Source: Antennarius striatus (lineage: Eukaryota > Chordata > Actinopteri > Lophiiformes > Antennariidae). Taken from it: a stretch of 64,000 nucleotides of DNA. The translations under genes were made by a program, and so were the position numbers. Below the pieces are notes generated by a model. It did not search any database, was not told the origin of the DNA, and worked only from the letters and a program-made list of their open reading frames with translations. Positions 19,256 to 64,000 of the stretch are shown in pieces (the stretch's first letter is position 1; every line of letters starts with the position of its first letter). The DNA is taken from the NCBI RefSeq assembly GCF_040054535.1, contig NC_090781.1, positions 9,861,982 through 9,925,981 of the forward strand. Direction: 5' to 3'.

Positions 19256-36567
<17,312 letters not shown>

Positions 36568-37440
36568 ACTTGAACTGGGTCAAACTGAGATCTGTTTGGA
36601 TGGATAGCTAGGTCAAATCATGGACTTCCTGCCACAAAGGATCCCTGACATTCAAAAAGGACCTCACACTCCGTCAGGGCAAATGTCCTCTTCCTCCTCT
36701 TCCTCCTTCCTAGTTTATCTTACACAACAGTGACTGGCTGGAGTTTTTCAATCAATCGGATGCCAAGAATCCACTTTAGCATTTTGGAAGATCAAGGGAC
36801 ATTTCATAAAGGAGAATAAATTGTCTTTTTAATGACTGTAGATTGCAATCTATGAAATTTTATCTTAATGAAATGCCTGCATATATTATTTATTGTAAGT
36901 TTTTAAATGTGGAATTTTTAATGCTTAATATCTTTTATATATTACAAATCCTAGAGGGTGTGTACATCTCACTGTAAAGGAATTGGTTTAAAAAGTGTAA
37001 TTTTCTCAATTACAACATGGAAAAACCTGTTCAAGTGAATTTGCTGTAGATTGCTTTTAGAATATTATTTTTTCAAAGGGTACAAACCTTTTTATTGCCA
37101 TGCTATGAAAATGAAGTAAAAGCTGGCTTGGGCATTTGTGTCCCACCCAATGAGCGGATGAGACTTACCTCTGTCTGCTTTGGCTCCAGAGTCTCTTGCA
37201 CAGTAACTCAATGAGCTCTGAAGAGGAATTAAAAGGTACATTGTCAGATTATATATTTTATATAACAGATTTAGGTAATTGTGTGTGTATATGTGTACAT
37301 ATAATTGTGTGCCGCTACTGATGGTGCAGCTTCTGTTTTAGGAATAAAGTGCGTCTACCTTAACCTCTGTTCTGATTGGCTTGTTTTTGACAGGTTTGAA
37401 CAGTTTTGGGTAAATAAATATTTCTCTTCCAAATAAAATG
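36568..37440 (+). terminator. med13: med13 3' untranslated region with polyadenylation signals
   Basis: After the TGA at 36565-36567 the sequence is AT-rich with no further coding. AATAAA hexamers at 37343-37348, 37413-37418 and 37432-37437 are candidate cleavage signals, followed by GT-rich stretches. The last two are close together and could be used alternatively. Confidence 0.65.
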
Positions 37441-38695
37441 TAGTCCCGTCTTTCATTTTTGTACATTCATAAAGACTGAACACAAAGAATAAATGAAATA
37501 AACTGGACAAACTTGATCTTGCCTGGATTCAGGGCAAAAAAGGTTGGCTAGCCCCTCAACAGGATCCCTACTCATACACTTTTATTTATATGCTACATCT
37601 GTATTTAGACTTGTCGCTATGAGACCCTGCACCTAAAAGTGATCCCTGTTATTGTCGAACAATCTGCTTTAAATGGTCTAATGAGTCATGACACAGAGGA
37701 AAATTGTGATGGATGGTGGCTGGATGTAGACGGACCCCTGATGGAATGGCTGCTTTCACCACACCTGTTCTAACAGGATCGGAATGGCTAGCGAGAGTGG
37801 AATTAGCTAATCAAGGGCAACATGTCATCCCAAAGCCTCATCCAATCACCATCTTCTGTCCCGTTTAATGGGATCCAGTTAAATTGGTCTGGGGCCTTCT
37901 GGAGCAAGGAGTTCAAGCCAGATCGCCCAGTTCAGAGAACACTGTTTAATATATAGAAGGATTTCAACAGCGAACCCAAACAAAGACGAGACGTTGGGAT
38001 TTCCAGCTCCAGCGCGACCTCAGGTGCCTCAAATGTCAGCTTCCTTCTCGTCCAACAGAACTGCTGCGACAAGGGGTTCACCAAGTAGTTGCTATTCATT
38101 ATAGGTGCACTTCTTCATCAACAACAGTACACAATACTCATAGACCTTAATCCACTGTCCATTTAGAAACACTGAATGGAAAAGAAAATGTTAAATTATA
38201 TTAAATATATTTCAACTTTAAATAACTTTAGTTATACTACTTCCCTCAGCATGCTAATATTAAGATGGTTTTAAGCATGTATAAAAAAATGTTTTTTCCA
38301 TTTTTTGATAGACAGAAATAATAACATTATTAATACCAATAATAACAAAAGTTAGCAGGTGGTAACAGTTTTGTTGTTTTTTTTAAACTTTAAAATTAGG
38401 AATTGTGTGATTAATTATGTGTAAACTACTTGAAGGATTGCTGTATGGAGTAGATCTACTCTCATATAAGAAGACAGATGGGACCACATTTAACTCAGTA
38501 AATTCGCTGGTTGCAGGAGGTACATATCATACATAAAATTACTAAAATAAAATACATAAAAATTTGCACAATACAAGATAAATGTTTTATACTAATGCAG
38601 AAAATCACTGTCTTTAGGATTTTGCCACAGATGCTACATGTGCTATAAAGTACACATCATTGTACATTGATGACCCTGGTGCTTATTTCTTTAAT

Positions 38696-38737
<42 letters not shown>

Positions 38738-41405
38738 TGTCTCCTCAGCCTCTACTTGAACAGCATTCCCGCTGCCACATAAGATGTTAGTCTCTAAACT
38801 GGAGGGATGATGGGATTAGTTTAAGTCATTAGGAGAAGTTAATGGTCTTTCCTGGTGTTGGTAAGTAACACTGACAAACTGAGCAGAGCTACCAAGCAGT
38901 TGACACTGGCGTACGGAAAACAATGTTCTCCTGACAGCTGACTGATTCATCAGTTAGGGTGCTCTTATTCAGATACAGAAAAGGACATATTTAAAGTCTT
39001 TGTTTTTACTCTGGTGTCTGATAAACAGGCTGGAGGAGCCGGATGCTACGCCAGGTACTGGATAACATACCTCAAACATCAAGACGCTGAGATTTCGCAT
39101 TGACTTTAGGTAAGAAGCATACAGGAAATGTGTTACTGTATTGTGTTTCATCAGAACATAGACTGTCAAATAATGTGATGAATGGAAACAAATTCTGTAT
39201 GTTATAGATTGATGCATTTAGATGCTGAAGAGGTTTAATTTTTAATGTAATTTTTTTTTTTTTACATTCAATGTATTTTTGAACATCTGTTTCTCATTTC
39301 TTAGTTACACTAAATATTCAACAATTGATCAACTCAGGACTATCTATGCTAGTATTAAATGTTGTCATAATTAAAAATTTTCCAGAAACAGTTATTAGAA
39401 TTACTGCAGGCTTATTTTCCGGTGAATGAATTACTGCAGCTTTAACTTTCTGTGGGAACCCTGAGGTGAAATCATTTGTGAGTCTATTGATTTCTGATAC
39501 CTGAGGACAGCTGGGATGCAAAAAAAAAGTGTTAGTCGATGTGAGGTGACGGTTTCTTAATTCCCTCAGATGACACCACTCGTCTCTGTCACCTCATTCA
39601 CTCCGTTTGAGCTCCAAACAACTGGCTCCTTTATGAGATTAAGAGATTTCTGCGACACGCTGACATGGAAGAAATTTAGAGAACATGGCATCTGCAATCT
39701 CCACCTAATCTTGTCTTTATGAGAAAGGAGAGATTAAGCAATGAGATTACTCAGGGTTAAAGGGGTACTGGCACAAACGGGATCGTAGAAATCCTTCGTG
39801 GAAACGTTTGCTGTGTCACAGAGAGAAATCAGCCCTGTTGTTTAAATTCAAGTATCACTTACAGTGTTATAGGTACAAAACCCAGGATAATTTCTCAAAT
39901 AATTTAAATCTAAATATTAAGTAATTATCACTGATTGTAATATGAAACATTTTATGATATTTTCACCCTGAGAATGTCTAAGTCGATTTAGGCTTCAGTA
40001 AATATCTTAATTTCTGTGATTTAATACGCAACACAGTGAGTCACAGTAGCAGCCTCTCCTCTCTGTACTTTATATTCTAGGCAGACCGCGCGTCTCAGTG
40101 CTGCCCATTCACTAACATCATCACTAATCAAGTGTCCTTGAAGTGGACAGATCCTAAATGAACTGAATGGATTGGCGCACTGAATACCTCAATTGGATTA
40201 TCGTCTGTAATTCATTCTAACAAGATATTTTCATTTGCATGTGATTTGAAAGGCAAATTGCCCAAGAAGAATTAACATGCATTACAATTTACCTTCATGC
40301 TGCTCAGATGTTTCTATAAATCCTCACAGATGCTGAAATTGTTTCTTCCATTTATTTCATTCCACCGTCTTCAGGATTCCACACATCCTCAGGGAAAACT
40401 CCAAAACACTCACAACAAAAACACCCTCAATTATCTGATGTCACTGTTCTGACACACGTTAGACTGAGGGACACGTGTGGCTGTTAAGTGTTCTGTTTGT
40501 GGTCCTGAACACAACTGAAAGAGAGTATCAAACACAAGCTGAAAGACTGACTTTTACAACAGCCTTCAGTCACTGCCACCAGAAACGCTGGACGTAACAC
40601 ACAAACAGGGATGCAGCCCAAATATGGAAGCATCACTGTGTGACATCATGGCTTTAAAAGGCCGGATGAACCCCAACAATCAGATACAGCCGTAACAATC
40701 CACTGAACCTGATCATCTAGATCATCTGGATTAATGTAAAAGGACATTTTATATTTTAAATACATTAAATACAACAGTTTTTTACTGATCCACATATCAG
40801 TAAGAAAACTGATTTAGAAAACTGATTCAGAAACTGATTTAAAGCACCATTATTCTACCAAACACACAAACATATGTTTGGCAAATTAAAACAAATCTAA
40901 AGACTTGTGCATGTCTTCGTAAGCCATTGGTGACACACAAAAAAAGACAACAAAAAAAAAGACATGCCATCAATATTTAAGTTGAGAAAAAGCTTTTTTC
41001 AAATTGTGCCAAAACACAAGATTTGTGACATCATTGAATTTTATGGGCTTTAATCTAACTCTGGAAAGATTTATGTGACTTCAAGATGTTAGTTTAATTA
41101 CCCTCTAAGTCAGTTACCTGCTTTAGGAAATATATTATTGGGTTTGCCTGTATAACAATTGCTAGATTAGCATCATATTTGCAATTTACCAAGTTTGAAA
41201 TAATTTACTAATTTACTAAATGATGTCAAAAGCTGCTAGCAGTGAGAACAGGCTTGAAGTTCTAACCCATAGTAAGTGACGCCATGACAACAGTCACCTC
41301 CTGGTACTGAGGACGCTCCCAGTACTCACTGCACAAATCCTGTAGCAGAACACACCATCCTACCTGCTGAGGAAATTAAAGCACATTTCCTCTTCTCCGT
41401 TTCAG
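37441..41405. other. intergenic or upstream intron of the unknown gene; nothing identified
   Basis: No exon could be recognised. If the gene at 41406-43192 has more 5' exons and a promoter, they should lie here. A 66-codon open frame without ATG (37948-38145, plus) and less AT-rich sequence at 37620-38100 are the only candidates, and neither has matched splice sites that I trust. Confidence 0.4.
38699..38734. repeat. (TG)n microsatellite
   Basis: About 17 uninterrupted TG units, ordinary. Confidence 0.95.
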
Positions 41406-43192
41406 ACGCCAACTTCATATTTTCACCGTCTGCTTCATCCACTTCGACAAATGCATCAGCACGCTGTCCAGCATGGCTTCACTCCCACCCTACACCAATC
41501 CCTCACCATCCTGCCTGCAGCTTTGACACAAATCCAGCACAGTTCAGTAAGGAGATGTGTCAAAACACTGTATTTTTCAATAACATTTTTTGAAATGTCT
41601 GTTTGAACTGAAAACGATTTATTTTTCAGCGTGTAGAACAATGTTTCTGCCTAACACTCCCAAAGCTAAATCATTAACTTTTACTGTAGTTCAACACACA
41701 TCTTCCCAGGGGAACAGCCAGACCCTCCTTCGGTCCTGTTCATGCCTTTCCAAGGACAACGCAGAAGTCTTTCAGGCCGATGGTGAGTCCAAGATGCATC
41801 ACTCAAAATAATCATCAATGTACAACAATGAACGTATGAAGACTCATGACTTCAGTGTAAAATGTTTGTACTTGAAGAAACGGGGGCGATGGGGTGCGCT
41901 TCATGTCTGCATTGCGTGGAAAATTTACGACAATGAACTAATGAAGGTAATTACTGAATAAACCTAATGTTTCAGACTTTATTGATGTATTTAGTCGTCC
42001 TTCAAAATGAGCGATATTCCGTGGCAGTTAGTTAAACTGGAGTTAAGGATTTTATGTGTTAGTAAAAACATCATCCTATAAAAAGATTGAGCCAGAACTA
42101 CAAATGTTTTAATGTCAGGCTTGCCTGTCATGTTTTTCAGGTGTGATCAAATTGATTATGTGAGATATAGGACAAAACATTACAAATGGTTGCATACATA
42201 GTTCTTTAAATCTTTTTTGTCTGATTCTAAAATTGTGTTGAATGCATTATTTATTAGAGAAGGCTGCAAAGACCCAACAGTCTCCATCCAACACTGACAC
42301 CTGAGTATCCTGTGACCAGTCAACACAAGGAATTTCAGCGGCTCTCCTGCAGACACGCACATTTTGGTGAGTTAAGGGACACAAGTAGAGAATATTCAAA
42401 GAAACAAGATCATGATTTTCTTAAAGCCCTGCTGATGCCACCTTTTTAGATCGTTCAAGTGAACACTCAGGAGAAGCGGCAGAAAACACAGAACACTTCC
42501 ACAGATGTTACCCTTCATCTCCATCCTGTTGTCCGATCAAGAAGGAGAAATTTGACTGGGAGCAACCAGAACAGACCCCAAACCAGCACAGGAAAGATAA
42601 AATCACCGAGAAGAAAGAGCCTGATGGCCAACAAAGTGAGTCCGAAAATAATGACAAGCCTGATGTCAGAGTCATCGGTTCCTTTGACAGGAAAAGGCAG
42701 CATGAGAGTGAAAGTTCCCCCAAAGTGAAGAGGGTGAAGCAGGAAGTTGTCCTGGATTATTCAAAGGATTGGCACACTCTTTTGTTTCAAACACATCTGT
42801 CTGCACACAGTGTTCCAGAACAACGTAGGTTCACCACCAGAAATCGTGAAGATCTCATTTGTTATCTGGGAAATAAGAGGAATCCTTACCAACCTGTTTC
42901 CTGGAAGCCACTGTGGAACGTTCACAAGAGATTGGAGGACCACGCCCGACACGACTGTTCAGTTACTGCATGCAAATCAAACAGGATACCTTTAGGGGCA
43001 CGAAGTCAGAAGAAGTCATTTCCTAGTTTCTTTGCACCACCTCTTCATTTCCCTGTTGGATCGACACAGGAGGCGGTTTACCACAGAGGTATAGAGCTTC
43101 TAGCCTATGACAACTATCATCTCCCCCACGCCAGACATCAACTCCCCCATCCTAACTTTCTGCCACACCCTGAGTCTCTGGGGTTTGTTTGA
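41406..43192 (+). CDS. unrecognised protein, 3' exons (partial gene)
   Basis: Three plus-strand exons are compatible in phase: 41406-41546 (acceptor GTTTCAG, donor GTAAGG), 41630-41782 (TTTTTCAG, GTGAGT) and 42450-43192 (CTTTTTAG, then stop TGA). Each ends with one codon base and the next supplies two. Together they give about 344 residues; 5' exons are missing. The last exon is a long open frame of 246 residues: a polar, Lys/Glu-rich first half with PIKKEKFDWE and RVKQEVVLDY (both fit the SUMO consensus), then KDWHTLLFQTHL, a Trp/His-rich block (PVSWKPLWNVHKRLEDHARH) and a Pro/His-rich tail ending PESLGFV. The composition suggests a nuclear regulator. I cannot name a family. The 41406 exon is the least certain. 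AATAAA follows at 43518. Confidence 0.65.
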
Positions 43193-43517
43193 CAGAAATG
43201 GAGATACTATGACTCCCAACTACAGCTACATTAAGTCCAGCATGTCTGTTCAGTTTACTGGTTGTTTCCATCTGTGCTTTCAAGCTCAACAGCATCCTGC
43301 ACAACGTTGAAAAGGATGAACGTTGTGAGCTTGTTTCAGGTCTGAGGTAGTAAAAAAGATACTCCATTAGCTAGAACTGATTTAATTAGGAGAATTATAA
43401 TAAAACGTGTTTATTTCATGAAAGTTCAGATTGAAGTCATCAAACCACATCTCATCAACATTGATTGAAAGTGTTTGACTCTTAAATGTATAACATAAAT
43501 CTATGAAGTGTCTGGTA

Positions 43518-43523
43518 AATAAA
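43518..43523 (+). terminator. candidate polyadenylation signal of the unknown gene
   Basis: The first canonical AATAAA after the stop at 43192, 326 bases downstream. The opposing hinfp gene has TTTATT (AATAAA on minus) at about 43646, so the two convergent transcripts probably end within 150 bases of each other. Confidence 0.5.
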
Positions 43524-43977
43524 AGGTATTACATAAAAGTAGCTGTTTCAACATTTACCTCTGAAACGAGGACGAAATGTACAGTTGATTCAACAAAGTC
43601 AAAGCTTCAGGAAACAAGTATGACCAAAATAACGAAGAAAAGAAGTTTATTTCTAGATCAGTATTTTATTTAAAATTGTTCCTCCTCTGAATTTCTTCAT
43701 CAGATGTCAAGAATGAAATGTCACAAAACTAAATAAAATTTTTGTCCAAACAAAAAGTTCTTTTAAGTCTTTTAAGTCTTTCACATAGGATTTGTCAAGA
43801 ACACAAACTAATTTTCTGGCAATCTATATAACAGGATACACAAAGCTATATGTAAAGACTTAGAACAGCTATATATAATGAAAGTATTATTACATTATCA
43901 AATTTTGAAAAAAATAAGAATCAAACATGTCTAAAAGTACAGGAGCAACTGGAGAGCCTCAGGGCAGACTGCTGAAA

Positions 43978-46900
43978 TCACACCACATCCATGCCCAAGC
44001 CCCTGGCGACCTCTGTCAGGGCCTGGACGGCGCCAGATGTGCGACCACCATCATAGTCGTCTCGGGTTAATCCGCCAGGCTCCACCTCGATCTGAGGTAT
44101 GGTGCTCATAACGCAGTAGATAGGAGAGTCACTGTCCATGGGGCTGGGCTGAGACGAAACATCTTCACCTCCGGAAAGCTCCGATGAGTACGAGGAGGAG
44201 GAGTTGGAGGAGGGCGAAGAGGATCCTGCGGGAGAACTTTGGCTGTTCTCTGACACGACCACAGCGCTCTTGTTCTGACTACTGATCCTTTGACTTTTCC
44301 GAAGGATCTGAGGCTTCTTGGCCATGTTCTTCATGATCTCCTTTGTCACTTCCACAGTCTCAAATCGGACCATGTTCACTTTTAGGAAGCCATCTACATC
44401 CTTCCTGTACCTGTGATGATAGAAGTCACACATTAAATATATCTTTTAGTCTTTTCTTATCCGCTGAATTGTGTTAAATGAATCTGATGGGCCCGGCAGG
44501 CTGAGTGAATCCAAGAAGCACTTGTTTCAGTGGTGATTTCATGTTGTGACAAACCTAAAGCGGGAATGTCCAGAGGGCCACTTCAAATCATGCTTCTTGC
44601 GAAGGTGAAGTGTGAGAGTGTAACACCAGGAGAAGACCTTATCGCAGATATGGCATTTATATTTGGACACCTCTCCCGCCTAAAATTTCATGCAATGACA
44701 TTAACAAGAAAGCATCACAGTGACTTGCAACACACTTAGTGCAGGTTGTACTGATGATCTAAAAAGGTAACATTCTTTGCTTTGGATGACATCTGGTTGA
44801 TAACAAACCTCATGTGCCCTCTTGAAGTGGTGGCTCATGGTTTGGAATGTGTGGCAAGAATAATAACAACCCTCCACTGTGCAGCGATACACGGTGCCTT
44901 CATTGTGAACCTCTGTGTGCTTTTGTAGATCTCGCTGGTTCTTAAATCTGTGACAGAAAAATACATGTTCAATGACATGAACGCTAGATTCAACATAGAT
45001 GCAATGCATGAAATATAGAAATAAATGACAAACTGATTCAAATTATAATTACTACAAATATTTACAATTTTTTATTTACAATTTTGCAATGCAAATTATT
45101 AAAACAAATTCTACATAAATATACCGTCCAGCACATTAATACCAATGCTGGAAGACTTGTTCAAATAATTTATTTCAGTAAATGAACCAATGCCATTGTG
45201 TACACAGTAAACACACAGCCACAAGTTCAAGCACTGCACTCAAATTTACTAAAATGAACAGTACGTCATTTCCACCACTAGGGGGCACTTGATTAAAAAA
45301 ATATGTTACGAGGTTATAAAGAAGCATGGCATCCTGGGAATCATCCAAGTCTTTATTAAATAACCTTTTTCGTTTTGGTTTTGATATCACATTGGAGGTT
45401 TTTATGTTTGGAGGTCGGATGAAAAGGGTTTGATGAGCAGGTTTTGGTAGTTTTAAGAGTAAGCTCATATTTGTTTCCTTTTTTCCCCCACATGAACAGA
45501 TATTCTGGGTTCATTTGGGAAAAAACTGTTCAGTGAAAGCACCCATAAACATTTAAACACTATAAAATGTTTTCCCTCCTAAACTGGACTTTAAAATTCC
45601 TTAAAAACTGCTAGTCAATAACTAACACAAAATCTACGAGACCATCAATAGGATTTCAAGATAAATTAGTTTTATTGATAAAAGTTTATTTTATATTTGT
45701 TTTCAAATGTATGCAAAGACCCATTATGACAGGGGCTGTACAAAATATTTGAGAACATACAGAGCGTTGATTTTGCCCTAAAGTACAGTAGTTGTGAATG
45801 AAACATTTAACCTGTTGTTCCAAATGTCTACCTTTTGTCACAGAAGTCACATGGAAAGGGCCGCTCATCACAATGGCGAAACCTGATGTGAATCTTCAGA
45901 GCTGCCAGCGTGGTACAGGTCATGTCACAGAATGGACACTTCACCTGATTTACTTGGGGGAAAACGAATGTGAATCGCAATTAATAATTAAATATACCTG
46001 AAAAGGCTGGTAAATGACTCAATGAGATACCAGGGACTTGAAAATTAAATATAAACAGCGTAAAGACAAAAATATGAAAAAAAATCTTTACCATGCTGAC
46101 GAACGTGATCCCTCAGAAGCCTCTCACTTGAAAATGCTTTGCCGCAATGCTCACACACTAGTGAATCTGGTCCAAACAGAATAAATGTACACGAGTCAAC
46201 ATAAAAATCTAATCTAGCACAGAAATGACTTCAATCAAAGCATCTTTCTTACCGATTGGCTCAGCCTGCCTGTGCAGGTGGTCAAACAGCTTTGTGTTGC
46301 TGGAGAACATGCTGCCACATGTAGGACAGGCTACAAGTCTCTCCTGAGTGTGGCTCCGCATGTGTTCTCTCAAACGGTACCTGATCTTGAAGAAAGCATC
46401 ACAGCCTGAAATAGATATATATATATCAAGATCAATAACAGTGTGCCAGAACAAACGACATGCATGCAGCATCTCTCTTAACCTCTTCTTTACTCAGTCA
46501 TACCTGCCCAGTGACAAAAGAGTGCCTGCTGTTGTTGAGCTACTGACTCTGGTTCAGCACTTTCTACATGATTGTCCACGTGTCGGTAGAACCACTCAGG
46601 ATTGTTAAATGTACTCTGTACAAAGACAGATAAGTTACATAATAAAAGTTCCTCCATTCCTTTGAAAGATCCATTAATAACAGAACCTGAGAATACCTAC
46701 ATCGCAGTGCTCCCACTGACAAATGTATCCACCTGATCCTTCAGGAACAAGGTTGTTGCTGTGCACTCCTTGGTTGCAGCTGGGCAGATCAGGCCGTGAT
46801 CTCAGCAGCTGTGATCCAATGAACTTAAGCTTCCCATGGTAGTTGTGGAAGTAAGCATGCACCTCCAAATCCGCAGGGCTACCCATAGATATAAATTCAC

Positions 46901-50342: not shown

Positions 50343-51883
50343 CAGTTATGTTCATAATAATAGCAGTGTGGGTAAACCTGAAAATTCTTCAAATAATTTT
50401 TATTTTAATGCACACAAATGCATTAGGGACACTTTAAATTCTGTATCAAGGCAAGAAAAATGAAAAAGTCATTGAATATGATAATATTTTACAGGAAGTC
50501 AAAAAACATAATGTTAAAAAAATACGCCAGTTTCGTTATAACCCAATAATGTACTTCATAAAACTAAGATATGCTTGAAGATTCAGCTTTCTTGAGAATC
50601 TTAAATTAATATTTAGTTGTATAACCACAGTTTCTGATAACTATTTTACATCTGTGGTGCACGGAGTCGACCAACTTCTGGCACCGGTCAACAGGCATTC
50701 CAGCCCACGACAGTTGTACTAGGTTCCATAATTCCTCTGCATTTCTTGGTTTTGCATCGTGAACAGCATTTTTTATGTCAGCCCACAAGTTTTCTATGGG
50801 ATTTTCTGGCAGCTCCATTAGTTGGATGCTGCTTGTCTGGATCCATAATTTTGCTCGCTGGCGGGTGTGTTCGGGGTCATTGTCTTGTTGAAACACACAT
50901 TTCAAAGGCATATCCTCTTCAGCATACGTCATCATGGCTACTTCCAGTATTTTGATGGACTCAAACTGATCCATGATCCCTGGTATTTCATAAATAAGAC
51001 CAATGCAACAGTATGAGAAACATTCCCATATCATAATGCTTGCATCATCAGGCTTCACCATCTTCACTTTGTACTGTGGCTTCATTTCAGTGTTTGGGGG
51101 TCGCCTGAGAAATTGTCTGTGGCCCTTAGACTCAAAAAGAGCGTTCTGACTTTCATCAGTCTACAAAATTTTATGCCATTTCTTCAAAGCCCAGTGAATG
51201 TGGTCTTTGGCAAATTGTAACTGCTTCAGCACATGTCTGTTTTTTAACAATGTGTCTTTGCGAGGACTTCTGACTCATAGCTTGGCTTCACACAGACGTC
51301 ATGTGATTGTTACAGTACTTGGAGACCACCTTAGATTTTCTCTGATCCTCCTGGAGATGATCTTTGGCTGAGCCGTTGCCTTTTTGGTTATTCTTGAATC
51401 CATTTGAGTATTTTTTCTTTCTTCCTCAACTTTCTGGATTTAGTTGCCATTCTAAAGCATTTGATATCATTTTAGTTGAAGACCTATAATTTTTTGCACT
51501 TCTTTATAGGTTTTCCCCTCTTTTATTAACTGAAAAAACAGTGACTTCTGAACAATGCGTTAAACAACCCATTTTACTGGCACAGCCACCATCTACAGCA
51601 CCAGTTGCCTCGATCCTTAACCATGGGCTGTCCTGTTTGACACCTTTTTTTCTTCTTCACAAAATCACTAACTGAACTGAGCACTGTTATTTTTTTGAAC
51701 ATTATTTTTATTGACTTTCTATAAAATATCATCATATTCAATGACTTTTACCACTTTTCTAGCTTTGAAATAGAGTCAGAAGTGTCCCCAATGCATTTGT
51801 GTGCAATAAAAAAAATTTTTTTTAAAGAATTTTGAGGTTTACTCACAATTTTAGACACACTGCTATAATTATGAACATAACTG
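50343..51883 (-). mobile_element. Tc1-type DNA transposon, decayed, with both terminal inverted repeats
   Basis: A 28-base left terminus (50343-50370, starting CAGTTATGTTCATAATAATA) is the inverse complement of 51856-51883 with a single mismatch. TA precedes the left end; after the right end TT stands where TA is expected, consistent with one substitution in the TA target duplication. At 1541 bases with an internal minus-strand transposase relic, the size and organisation are those of Tc1/mariner. It sits between hinfp and map6 and belongs to neither. Confidence 0.9.
50606..51450 (-). pseudogene. Tc1 transposase pseudogene
   Basis: The original start is probably the ATG at 51450 (MATKSRKLRKKEK, the usual Tc1 opening). 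It is stopped after about 16 codons and shifted further on. A TAG stands just before TDES, where Trp is usual. The longest intact part (51085-50606, 159 residues) keeps FQQDNDPEHT, with the second catalytic Asp, and PIENLWADIK, with the third acidic residue of the DD34E triad, then a usual C-terminus ending GYTTKY. Several disablements make it inactive. Confidence 0.92.
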
Positions 51884-53595: not shown

Positions 53596-59303
<5,708 letters not shown>

Positions 59304-61315
59304 GATGAACACTGGCAAGAAAAGACAAATATACAGACCCAACTCTGAATCCGGGGATAGATATCTTAATGTCTTACTCACGGATTCGAAGACTTGCAAA
59401 GTGAGCGGCCCCTCACCACGTGTCCTCCTTCTGGTAGCTTTTATGTAATTCAGTGGAGTTTATCTCACCAATCTTTGCTGGGACTAAGGAAGTGCAGCTG
59501 CCACGCCTCCTTTCTCTCCACCAGAAGATTATTTCTATTTACTGGAAGTTAAATCTCTTTTAGGATTTGCTGTGGCGTGCACGTTGCTGTCTGGTTACGC
59601 ATCGTTGGTACCCCACCCACATTTGTGTGATGCTTGGAGATGCTTGGTAATGCTTGGAGAACCGGGTCTGCGCCGTCAGTCTGCACAGTGAACTGTCACC
59701 TGAGATCGTCACCGTCTGGCCAGCAGACGGTCACATGGTTTAACCCACGTTCTGCGAAATTCTCCACAAGATCCATAATTTTTTTTTTAAAAAGAAAGAA
59801 AGACATACATAGTTCCTCAAATTTTGATGCTGCAGCTGAAATTCTTTGGTGAAATCAGATTTCTTATCGTTTTACATATTTTAAAGTAAAATAATTCTCA
59901 GGCAGCACCATGTTTGACCCATATAAAAAAATATTATCAAAATGCTGCGTGTAAATACTTTTTAAAAATGTTTTATAGCAAACTTTTTTTTAAAAACTAA
60001 AATTTATGCAAAATTTAACTAGTTAATATTCTGGATGCTAGCAAAAGGAGAATCACACAGTCATGACTCATGACTAATTAGCAATGACACACAAAAACTA
60101 ACAACGTCCATATTAGCAGACAGCTAATGCAGAGATTGGCCCCAGGTCAGGGGGTCAGACCCTAGGGCTTCATTTCCTGGTGCAATGCAAACGCCTTTCT
60201 GTCCCTATTCCATCCGATTTCATAAAATGTTCAGCAAAACAACACCAATCAGCAAACATATGAAGAATGGCTTTTACTTTCTTAACTAAAGGAAATGTTA
60301 TGAATACTCACATCTACCATACTGACCCAGGGGTGGGCAAATCTTTTTTGACTGGTGGCCCAACAGAGTTCTAAATTCTGACAGGTGGACGAGCTGAGGA
60401 ACAGATGGAATGTTTATTTGTACTTATGTAAATAACATGTAAAAAAAAACATCACATAAAAGATTTTGGATTTTGATAAGCAGTAAAGCATATTTACGGA
60501 GGCCTTATTGTAAAAATTATTTTACAACTGATTTTATTTCATAAAATTGTATTGTTTAAAGGAGTTTGGTGGGACGTATTACAAAGCCTAACGGGCTATA
60601 CATGGCCCACGAGCCGTAGCTGCTTATGCCTGTAAGAACCTCTTAAACTGTTAAAAACAAGTCAATTGCAGTAGAAATGTTTTATTCAAGAGAAAACAGA
60701 ACAAAGATTAATTTCCTGTTGGATAGTATAACTGCTCCCTCTTGTGCTATTTCTCCATCACTGACAGTGAAAAGCAATCAAGGAATCCTGGACCAACAGC
60801 CTTCATTAAAGAAGTGAGTAAATGAAAAGTTAATGACTTTTTAAAAAAAACAAATAAAACAAAACTTTGTACTAAATTAAGTGACTAAAATAAATGAGAA
60901 AACACAGATAAAAAATACTTTGACCTGATAAAGCCTTGTGATTTCAAATATTTACAAATCATCCCCATCGACTTATATTTCAAGACATTTTTGTGGTGTT
61001 GCAGCTCCTATACTCCTCTTCACTCAGATCAATATTTTCTCCATGCCTCTTTTTCAAAATCTCAAATCAAACTTAAATTGCAATGTGTTTGAATACATCA
61101 ATTTTAACACCTACATTGACAATACAAAGAATACAGGTTTCTTTTCCCCTTGGTAACCCCAGCAAATTGTAAAAATGGCATCCATCACATTAAGGTACAC
61201 ATTCCTTTGCAGGTCTACAGAACAAAACCATAACTAGTGCTTAAAAGAATCTAAGCTAATAGCGAACAGCATCTGTTTCACTCTGTGAACAGCAAAGCTA
61301 TTTGTGTCCATAACA
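59304..61315. other. map6 upstream region and thap12 3' untranslated region
   Basis: To about 59600 the sequence is probably map6 promoter and leader. No gene is visible after that. On minus, AATAAA (TTTATT at 60681-60686) is a candidate polyadenylation signal for thap12, 630 bases past its stop. A hAT-like remnant lies between, at 60328-60632. Confidence 0.45.
60328..60632. mobile_element. hAT-like non-autonomous element, decayed
   Basis: The left end CAGGGGTGGGCAAATC with CTGGTGGCCCA, and the right end TGGCCCACGAGCCGTAGC with ATGCCTG, fit the CAGGGGTGGGCAAAC...GTTTGCCCACCCCTG type of hAT termini after substitution. No frame remains and no clear 8-base duplication is seen. Confidence 0.6.
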
Positions 61316-64000
61316 TCATTTCATCACATCTTCCTCAGCCACTTCCTCAGACTCTGCCTCAGCTTCGGGATCATCCTCCGGATAAAGTCTACAATATTTG
61401 TCAACCATGACATCCAAATCATGTTTTACATGACTGTTAATGTTAAGTATCACAAGACTTTTGTTCCACTGCTTCATCGGCATGCTGTCGAGATAAGCCT
61501 GGAGTTGTTTGCTGGATGTGTCACTTTTGCTATCCTCTAATTTCAGCACTGGCAGCGTGGAGAGCACCTTGAGGAAGGTGTTGACGTTGGGAAAGAACTT
61601 CACATCTGGCAGCTGAAGTGTTTCGTGGATGGTGGTGGGCAAACGCACCTCTTTGCCCCTGTGCTTCCATTTGATTCTCCAGCAGTGAAGCTCCGCAGGA
61701 AGTGTGTCTGGGTTGGGAAGGTCATTGCGGTAAGCATCTGCATAGTTCTCCTCAGTGGTGTTGAATTTCATCTGTCCCATTACGGCCGGGACCAGTGAAA
61801 GGCACTTAAGAGCTTTCAGGTTGGTCTCTGAGAACATTTCCTCGACCTCTTGCATGATGCCATTGATAACAGGGACAGTCACATACTCCTTGAAGTACGA
61901 CTCTGGTTGAATGTCACCCATATTGGCTGCGTGCTGTTTCCGAAGAAACACCCTAGGGATCTTCACAGGAATCTCCATGACATTGGCCACACTCATAGCC
62001 TCTTCATACCAGAACTCATGGTAGACATCAATGTTATCGTTCACTTCATTCAAGGAATGCAGGACAGCCGTTAGACTGTTCGCAGCAAAAAAGACATCAA
62101 GGGTTTCCCCTTGCAGATTCCTCCCAAAGGCTCGGCTGAATGTGAGAACATTTTTTAAGATGACAATGGTGACAATAATCTCAAATTCAACTAGAGTTTC
62201 CGAGATTGAACTTGCATCCTCTCTGGCAGCATCAGAAAACTTCCCTTCATCATTATCCCAAATGTTGTCCATGCATAGGAGCAGCGGTGGCAAAATATCT
62301 AGCAGCACGTCAAAGACGTTGTGCTGCTTTGTCCATCCTGAACCACAGGCCTCTAGGAGCACATTCCCTCTATCTTCATTTTTTTGATAGTGAGTAGAGA
62401 TAGCTTTTCTTAGCTCATCCTGAGTAAATTGGGTTCTAAAGAAAGCCTCAATCCTCCTCAGAGTCTCCATGACGACCTGGACATTGGGAAATGGCAGACT
62501 ATTTGCCAAGTGGATGTTCAGTGCCATGTGAGAATAAGGCATGTGCAAAGCCAGGGGATACTTCTCCATTAGCAACATTGCCACAGCTTTCATCTTGGTG
62601 GTGGACGTGCCAGTAGCTTTGTGGGCCTGACCACGGCAGTCTTCCATGCTTAGCCCCCAACGGTCCGTCAGCTGGGCCTCGAGCCTCTCTGCCAATGCAC
62701 ACTCATCACCATCAAATGACACAAAGTCTAAAAACTCCTCTCGGAGGGCATTCTGCTGATTCACAAAGCGTAAAAATAAAGGCAGGTATTTCTCTTGGGC
62801 AAATTCAACAAGGTCATCCGTCACCAGAGAGAAGAAGCGACTCTCTCTCACCTCCATTAGCATCTCCTCCCTCACTGTGTTCTCACAGACATCCAGGAGC
62901 TGGCTCAATTGGGTTGCAGAGAGGTACTCTGCATTCACAGCTGTTGTCTTGAATCGTTTTTTTAAAGCTTCATCTCCAGCATTCATGCGAAAATCTATAA
63001 GAGCCTGGAAGTTGTTGGACAGGCCGTCAGACTCAGACGCTTGTTCAGTCACTAATGGGATACTCTGTTTTGCAACCATGACCAAAATCTCAAACAAGGA
63101 TCTTAGAGGTTCACGAAACGCTTTCTCCTCCGTGGACAATTGAGGCTCATTCTCATTGGTGCTGGTGCCATCTTCAGCGGTGGCATCTTTTTTGGAATTG
63201 AGCTGTTCCACAGAAGATGCCACTGAGGAGGAAGTAGAGAGAGAAAGAAACAGTCATCATTTAAAATACACAGATACTGAATACACTTAAAATGAAAATA
63301 CAAACATATTGTATTTACATACATCTCCTTTCTTTGATTTTCCTTATATCTTCTTCCGTCTGAGAAAAAAAGTAAAAGATAATTTACAAAAACAGTTAAT
63401 AACTAAACATAATACTAACTATTATAGAAATAATTAAAAAATATTGAACAAAATATTAAGAGATGCAACCAGAAGAACCTTTAAAGATACAAGATACTTA
63501 CAAGTTCTTTAATCTGCTTGCGATGTCTTGTATGAGGATTGTTTAAATGACTTGTCAAATCAAATATAGTTGGAATGGCTGTATCCTTCAATACAGTCCT
63601 GTAGGGGCTCTGAAACACAACCATCTCAGATCAGACATTTTTTAGGAGACTTTTCAGGAAAGAAAAGGTTGCAAAGCGGCTAATGGCAGTAACTAGGACA
63701 GATACTTACTGTTTTGCAGACCATAGCTGGATCGAAATGTTTGGCACATAATCTGTAATGTTTGTTCAGCTGGTCTGATGTTTTGGCCTCTAGATCTGCC
63801 CTGCGGCAGTTCTCCACCCAGATTCGACATCTGAAAAGAAATACATGCCCAAGGTTTACGGTACTATTTGAAAAGCAGTAATGACATTAGCCAACACACA
63901 TTAGACGTACAGTACGAGTGGATACGGTTTGCATATTGTAATGTAATCTGGTCAAAAGTTTGAATTTACAGGACATGGAGCCTGAAATAAACTTTACCGC
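61316..64000 (-). CDS. thap12: THAP12 (PRKRIR, p52rIPK), 5' end beyond the window
   Basis: Coding exons on minus: 63830-63710, 63609-63502, 63359-63323 and 63222-61316, all in phase. GCG followed by GTAAAG at 63998 may be the end of the preceding exon, whose CG would complete an Arg codon. The first visible exon holds most of the THAP zinc finger (CRIWVENCRRADL, HYRLCAKHF, with the third Cys and the His of the C2CH set); AIPTIFDL is the AVPTIF box. The large last exon (635 residues) is a domesticated hAT-type transposase body: EFIVTIVVLKNV-like core, NLQGETLDVFFAANSLTAVL, a C-terminal dimerisation region (LHCWRIKWKHRGKE, LPDVKFFPNVN), and an acidic tail ending EEDVMK. The human protein regulates the p58IPK-PKR axis. 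The large exon has no ATG at its start; it begins in mid-codon. Confidence 0.95.

Follow-up and report, generated by a model that had tools for sequence, protein, structure and literature searches.

Genes without relatives beyond the teleosts make up a small set. In one zebrafish survey (PMC3599513), 135 teleost-specific and 66 orphan genes stand against 25,894 conserved ones, and their mean proteins measure 168 and 131 amino acids, respectively. By those counts ~0.8% of zebrafish genes are without relatives outside the teleosts and, at such a base rate, an annotated but uncharacterised gene is therefore likelier than a new one. Here we consider a locus of Antennarius striatus with this class in mind. 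We tentatively favour, at somewhat less than even confidence, a single-copy, spliced gene on the plus strand that ends in an exon of 246 codons and would most likely encode a nuclear transcriptional or chromatin co-regulator.

Our search space was a 548-Mb genome of 42 contigs, within which the window, i.e. the whole 64,000-nucleotide stretch analysed, occupies positions 9861982-9925981 of contig C6 and has a GC content of 40.4%. The features discussed below, in coordinates of the window, are the following:

38842..38860, plus strand: speculative start exon of phase 1; in a model of five exons it would make the third frame of A open
41406..41546, plus strand: candidate exon A, with two of its three frames open and, in one of those two, an ATG at 41451
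41710..41782, plus strand: candidate exon B, without a stop in any frame
42258..42366, plus strand: candidate exon C, with three closely spaced AGs that allow a start at 42258, 42260 or 42263; it reads open into D
42450..43192, plus strand: exon D, the last coding exon, in which two bases from a split codon are followed by 246 whole codons and a TGA stop
42536..42547, plus strand: SUMO consensus IKKE, residues 29-32 of D
42734..42745, plus strand: SUMO consensus VKQE, residues 95-98 of D, directly 3' of a basic stretch
43518..43523, plus strand: AATAAA pattern from a pattern scan, 326 bases 3' of the exon D stop

To the left lies med13, whose piece 34099-34584 matches the Pfam family Med13_C (3e-22) and, among PDB sequences, chains named Mediator subunit 13 (2.2e-44); reading from the sequence, the apparent end of its last coding exon is near 36567. 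On the right, the minus strand carries a C2H2 zinc-finger gene (stop at 43978), which from its sequence is presumably hinfp, in agreement with the preliminary description of this DNA, itself made from sequence. One piece of this hinfp-like gene was compared with PDB, without a match at E up to 0.01. Poly(A)-signal patterns are found on both strands between its stop and that of exon D, including a second AATAAA at 43399 in the pattern scan, and the repeats in 36600-44000 belong to short, imperfect or TG-rich families, with no large ones among them. Literature searches returned nothing on med13-hinfp synteny or on med13b with hinfp, nothing related on at least three of hinfp, thap12, map6 and med13 together (judged by title), and nothing relevant on zebrafish hinfp among the matches listed (judged by titles and the starts of abstracts). 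Further along the minus strand, a single frame of 645 codons (61316-63253) presumably represents THAP12/PRKRIR and has a DUF4371 match below threshold (E 1.2e-4), a 301-codon frame (58554-59459), for which Pfam gave nothing at E up to 0.01, resembles MAP6, and a transposase fragment (50606-51160) that we take to be of Tc1 type matches Pfam DDE_3 at E 0.0065, under the family cut-off. A CpG-rich stretch at 41801-42100, falling mostly within the presumed B-D intron, has an observed/expected ratio of 0.99 at 35% GC, compared with 0.44 for the whole window; an alternative promoter at this position is conceivable.

Exon D is almost certainly protein-coding. Its stop-to-stop frame (42425-43192, 255 codons) is the sole plus-strand frame of more than 200 codons in the window that we do not read as med13. 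Not one of 4000 dinucleotide shuffles of D stayed open, whether in D's own reading frame or in the other two on the plus strand, and across 60 simulated 64-kb sequences (order-3 Markov, trained on the window's presumed non-coding DNA) the longest ORF averaged 163.5 codons and reached a maximum of 246, against the 255 of the D frame. In 701 overlapping non-coding windows of 738 bases, the period-3 score never rose above 4.16 and the position chi-square never above 24.1; D exceeds both, with 4.70 and 26.6, respectively. Among 67 coding windows, however, the 10th percentile of the chi-square is 37.1, and D falls short of it. The preliminary description had claimed a real gene here, and for exon D the shuffles, the periodicity and the ORF length all bear this out.

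The codon and composition scores (30 loci read, 17 ORFs passing the length filter) are more divided. Amino-acid composition places the D frame best of three (17.7 versus 12.3 and -19.6 bits), synonymous codon use runs contrary to it (-11.5 versus +7.2 for another plus-strand frame), and the D frame leads the six-frame codon score solely through an 8-bit charge per stop. The GC3 of D is 0.46, and 16 of 17 coding pieces of the neighbouring genes have higher values (0.51-0.71). D codes, yet it looks like part of a gene with weak codon bias. Its 246 residues (42452-43189) contain no Met at all, which is unusual for coding and non-coding DNA alike; if translated from Met, D must therefore be spliced to an upstream start.

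What kind of protein would this be? With a GRAVY of -1.13 the D-encoded residues are hydrophilic, and Ser (9.3%), Pro (8.9%), His (7.3%), Glu and Lys are abundant among them. AlphaFold, run without an alignment, returned a mean pLDDT of 38.6 and no confident fold, and a PDB fold search with this low-confidence model gave one match at E 5.8. From motifs and composition, our guess is that the C-terminal 246 residues are probably mostly disordered. The two SUMO sites of the preliminary description, IKKE and VKQE, both lie in D and conform to the PsiKxE consensus, and at least two [VIL]KxE sites arose in 1.6% of 5000 shuffles of the D residues; the Trp/His-rich block and the Pro/His-rich C-terminus, also listed there, can likewise be read in the sequence. 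The basic stretch ahead of VKQE presumably fits a bipartite nuclear import signal, as judged by eye. The nuclear co-regulator proposed in the preliminary description is plausible from the two SUMO sites and the basic stretch, at the level of these motifs only; nuclear site and function alike would be guesses from motifs and composition. We posit that D is the last exon of a gene that would follow med13 and stand tail-to-tail to the hinfp-like gene, and that it probably encodes the end of a nuclear protein that changes fast. Most likely this protein would be a co-regulator of transcription or chromatin, acting in the nucleus through 246 hydrophilic and probably mostly disordered residues in which the two SUMO sites may flank a charged linker, and the Trp/His-rich part (approximately residues 100-170 of D) would be the likeliest binding module.

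Considering relatives, D matched a single place in the 548-Mb genome at the protein level at E<=0.001, namely itself, and elsewhere in the window the best tblastn E was 0.17, the adjacent med13 and hinfp-like genes included. Relaxing the limit to E 10 added one genome match, L002 on contig C14 (34% identity, E 6.2), which we take as chance. It adjoins a frame, L002:1884-2507, that reads to us like retrotransposon gag and was encountered through this chance match. An origin of D in a transposon or repeat was rejected at the protein level, given its one genome match at E<=0.001; neither many protein-level copies nor a transposase, gag or pol domain were found. The preliminary description recognised no family, and every search made here agrees with this: D matched no family or structure in Pfam, NCBIfam, PHROGs or PDB sequences, libraries poor in animal proteins, and alone it had no relative in IMG/VR or the GTDB contigs, where single-protein scans reach close relatives only. 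The ORF containing B matched Pfam DUF1970 (0.085) and that containing C had one NCBIfam match (0.062).

These results bear on the alternative that we consider rather probable, namely that D belongs to a fast-evolving orthologue of a gene annotated in other vertebrates, either named or listed as an "uncharacterized LOC", which is compatible with our preferred reading of a nuclear co-regulator. The zebrafish counts (135 + 66 versus 25,894; PMC3599513) put the prior on the side of relatives outside the teleosts, and D alone is longer than the mean orphan or teleost-specific protein of that survey. Against this orthologue, a Pfam search at E up to 10 gave no family for D or for two joined models (303 and 359 residues), nor for A and C, each searched in a single frame.

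The structure of the gene ahead of D is a separate matter. The three exons of the preliminary description, which we reconstruct as A-B-D, are present and join in an open frame of 957 bases and 318 open codons, 303 of them from the first ATG at 41451. Their agreeing phases had been called not easily chance. D does exceed chance, with its 0 open shuffles in 4000, but as an argument for A and B the agreement is not supported: of 4000 dinucleotide shuffles of A + B, 44% read open into D, and shuffled exon C was open in 35%. Random local non-coding pieces of the lengths of A and B were open into D in 1.9% of 20000, a difference that we attribute to these pieces being more AT-rich than A and B (GC 51% and 56%, respectively). 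We infer that A and B are exons from the quality of their splice sites, scored with general consensus frequencies and ranked among AG or GT sites: the A acceptor falls in the top 0.1% and its donor in the top 8.8%, the B acceptor in the top 3.75% and its donor in the top 0.31%, and the D acceptor in the top 7.25%. Exon C, missing from the preliminary model, has a strong donor (top 0.85%).

D can be entered in frame by at least four exon chains, and each of seven tried combinations of A, B and C leaves at least 25 open residues ahead of it. Perhaps the true chain is other than A-B-D, which we put at a little short of an even chance and which, concerning structure, is compatible with our preferred reading. 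It could be A-C-D (315 amino acids from the ATG at 41451), B-C-D or A-B-C-D (284 amino acids, with the last codon of B as the ATG), or a chain of five exons comprising 38842-38860, A, B, C from 42263, and D (359 amino acids); alternative splicing of C could also switch the N-terminal frame. All of these chains enter D in frame, and those with C gain from its strong donor but must use a weak acceptor, the best being 42258 (-2.1 bits, top 27%), ahead of 42263 (-4.2 bits, top 42%) and 42260 (top 58%). A-B-C-D with C from 42258 is the sole combination with a stop in A, and it keeps the ATG at the end of B. The N-terminus of the five-exon chain would be Pro/His-rich, as the C-terminus is, and by composition its frames score above those of the preliminary model (1.6 versus -2.8 bits for A, 4.2 versus 0.9 for B). 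On the other hand, it needs the C acceptor at 42263, synonymous scores slightly prefer the earlier frames (1.2 versus -3.3 bits for A, 4.9 versus 0.4 for B), and its start exon, with a donor in the top 1.15%, is speculative. In exon A, the frame containing a stop has the highest synonymous score (10.1), above both candidate frames. A and B are too short for codon scores to decide their frames: at 24-47 codons, frame-finding accuracy was 70-79% with synonymous codons only and 71-94% with composition added, as scored on the training genes themselves. A home-made exon-chain search set the intron cost too low, gave over-fragmented chains and was set aside. Further upstream, 10 of the 13 plus-strand ORFs of at least 50 amino acids starting in 37050-40543 were compared with Pfam at E up to 1, with a single match, to DUF4859 (E 0.076).

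A gene restricted to teleosts, or to a narrower group, that arose by divergence or de novo is in our view unlikely. Weak codon bias, low GC3 and a period-3 signal low for a coding exon would suit such a gene, as would the lack of a paralogue at E<=0.001 in its own genome and of a known family in the libraries searched, but this absence was seen solely in libraries poor in animal sequences, and the base rate in the zebrafish survey lies below 1% (PMC3599513). More improbable still is an undescribed, teleost-restricted nuclear family with a Trp/His-rich binding module, whose N-terminal frame may be switched by exon C. Finally, the open frame of D could be due to chance or decay (D being non-coding, a pseudogene or what is left of a transposon), which its low codon bias, its want of Met and the failure to find a homologue would fit, but the shuffle, ORF-length and periodicity tests, together with its one protein-level genome match at E<=0.001, which is not that of a repeat family, make this very improbable.

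To conclude, we return to our preferred reading of a spliced, single-copy gene for a nuclear co-regulator, and to how it compares with known systems. With SUMO-modified nuclear co-regulators as a general class, D shares PsiKxE sites, a basic stretch and a hydrophilic composition; no common Pfam domain was found, and the likeness lies at the level of motifs. Should the gene prove to be an orthologue that has been overlooked, it fills a gap in the annotation between two conserved landmarks. If, on the other hand, it is truly a teleost-only nuclear gene, it would join the small set of 135 + 66 genes tied to fish-specific biology in the zebrafish survey (PMC3599513). Either way, this is an ordinary uncharacterised gene until its orthologues or a phenotype are known. 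With the teleost lineage-specific genes of that survey (PMC3599513), it has in common few exons and no relative in the libraries searched; it differs from them in size, as the 246 codons of exon D alone exceed the zebrafish lineage-specific means of 131 and 168 amino acids.
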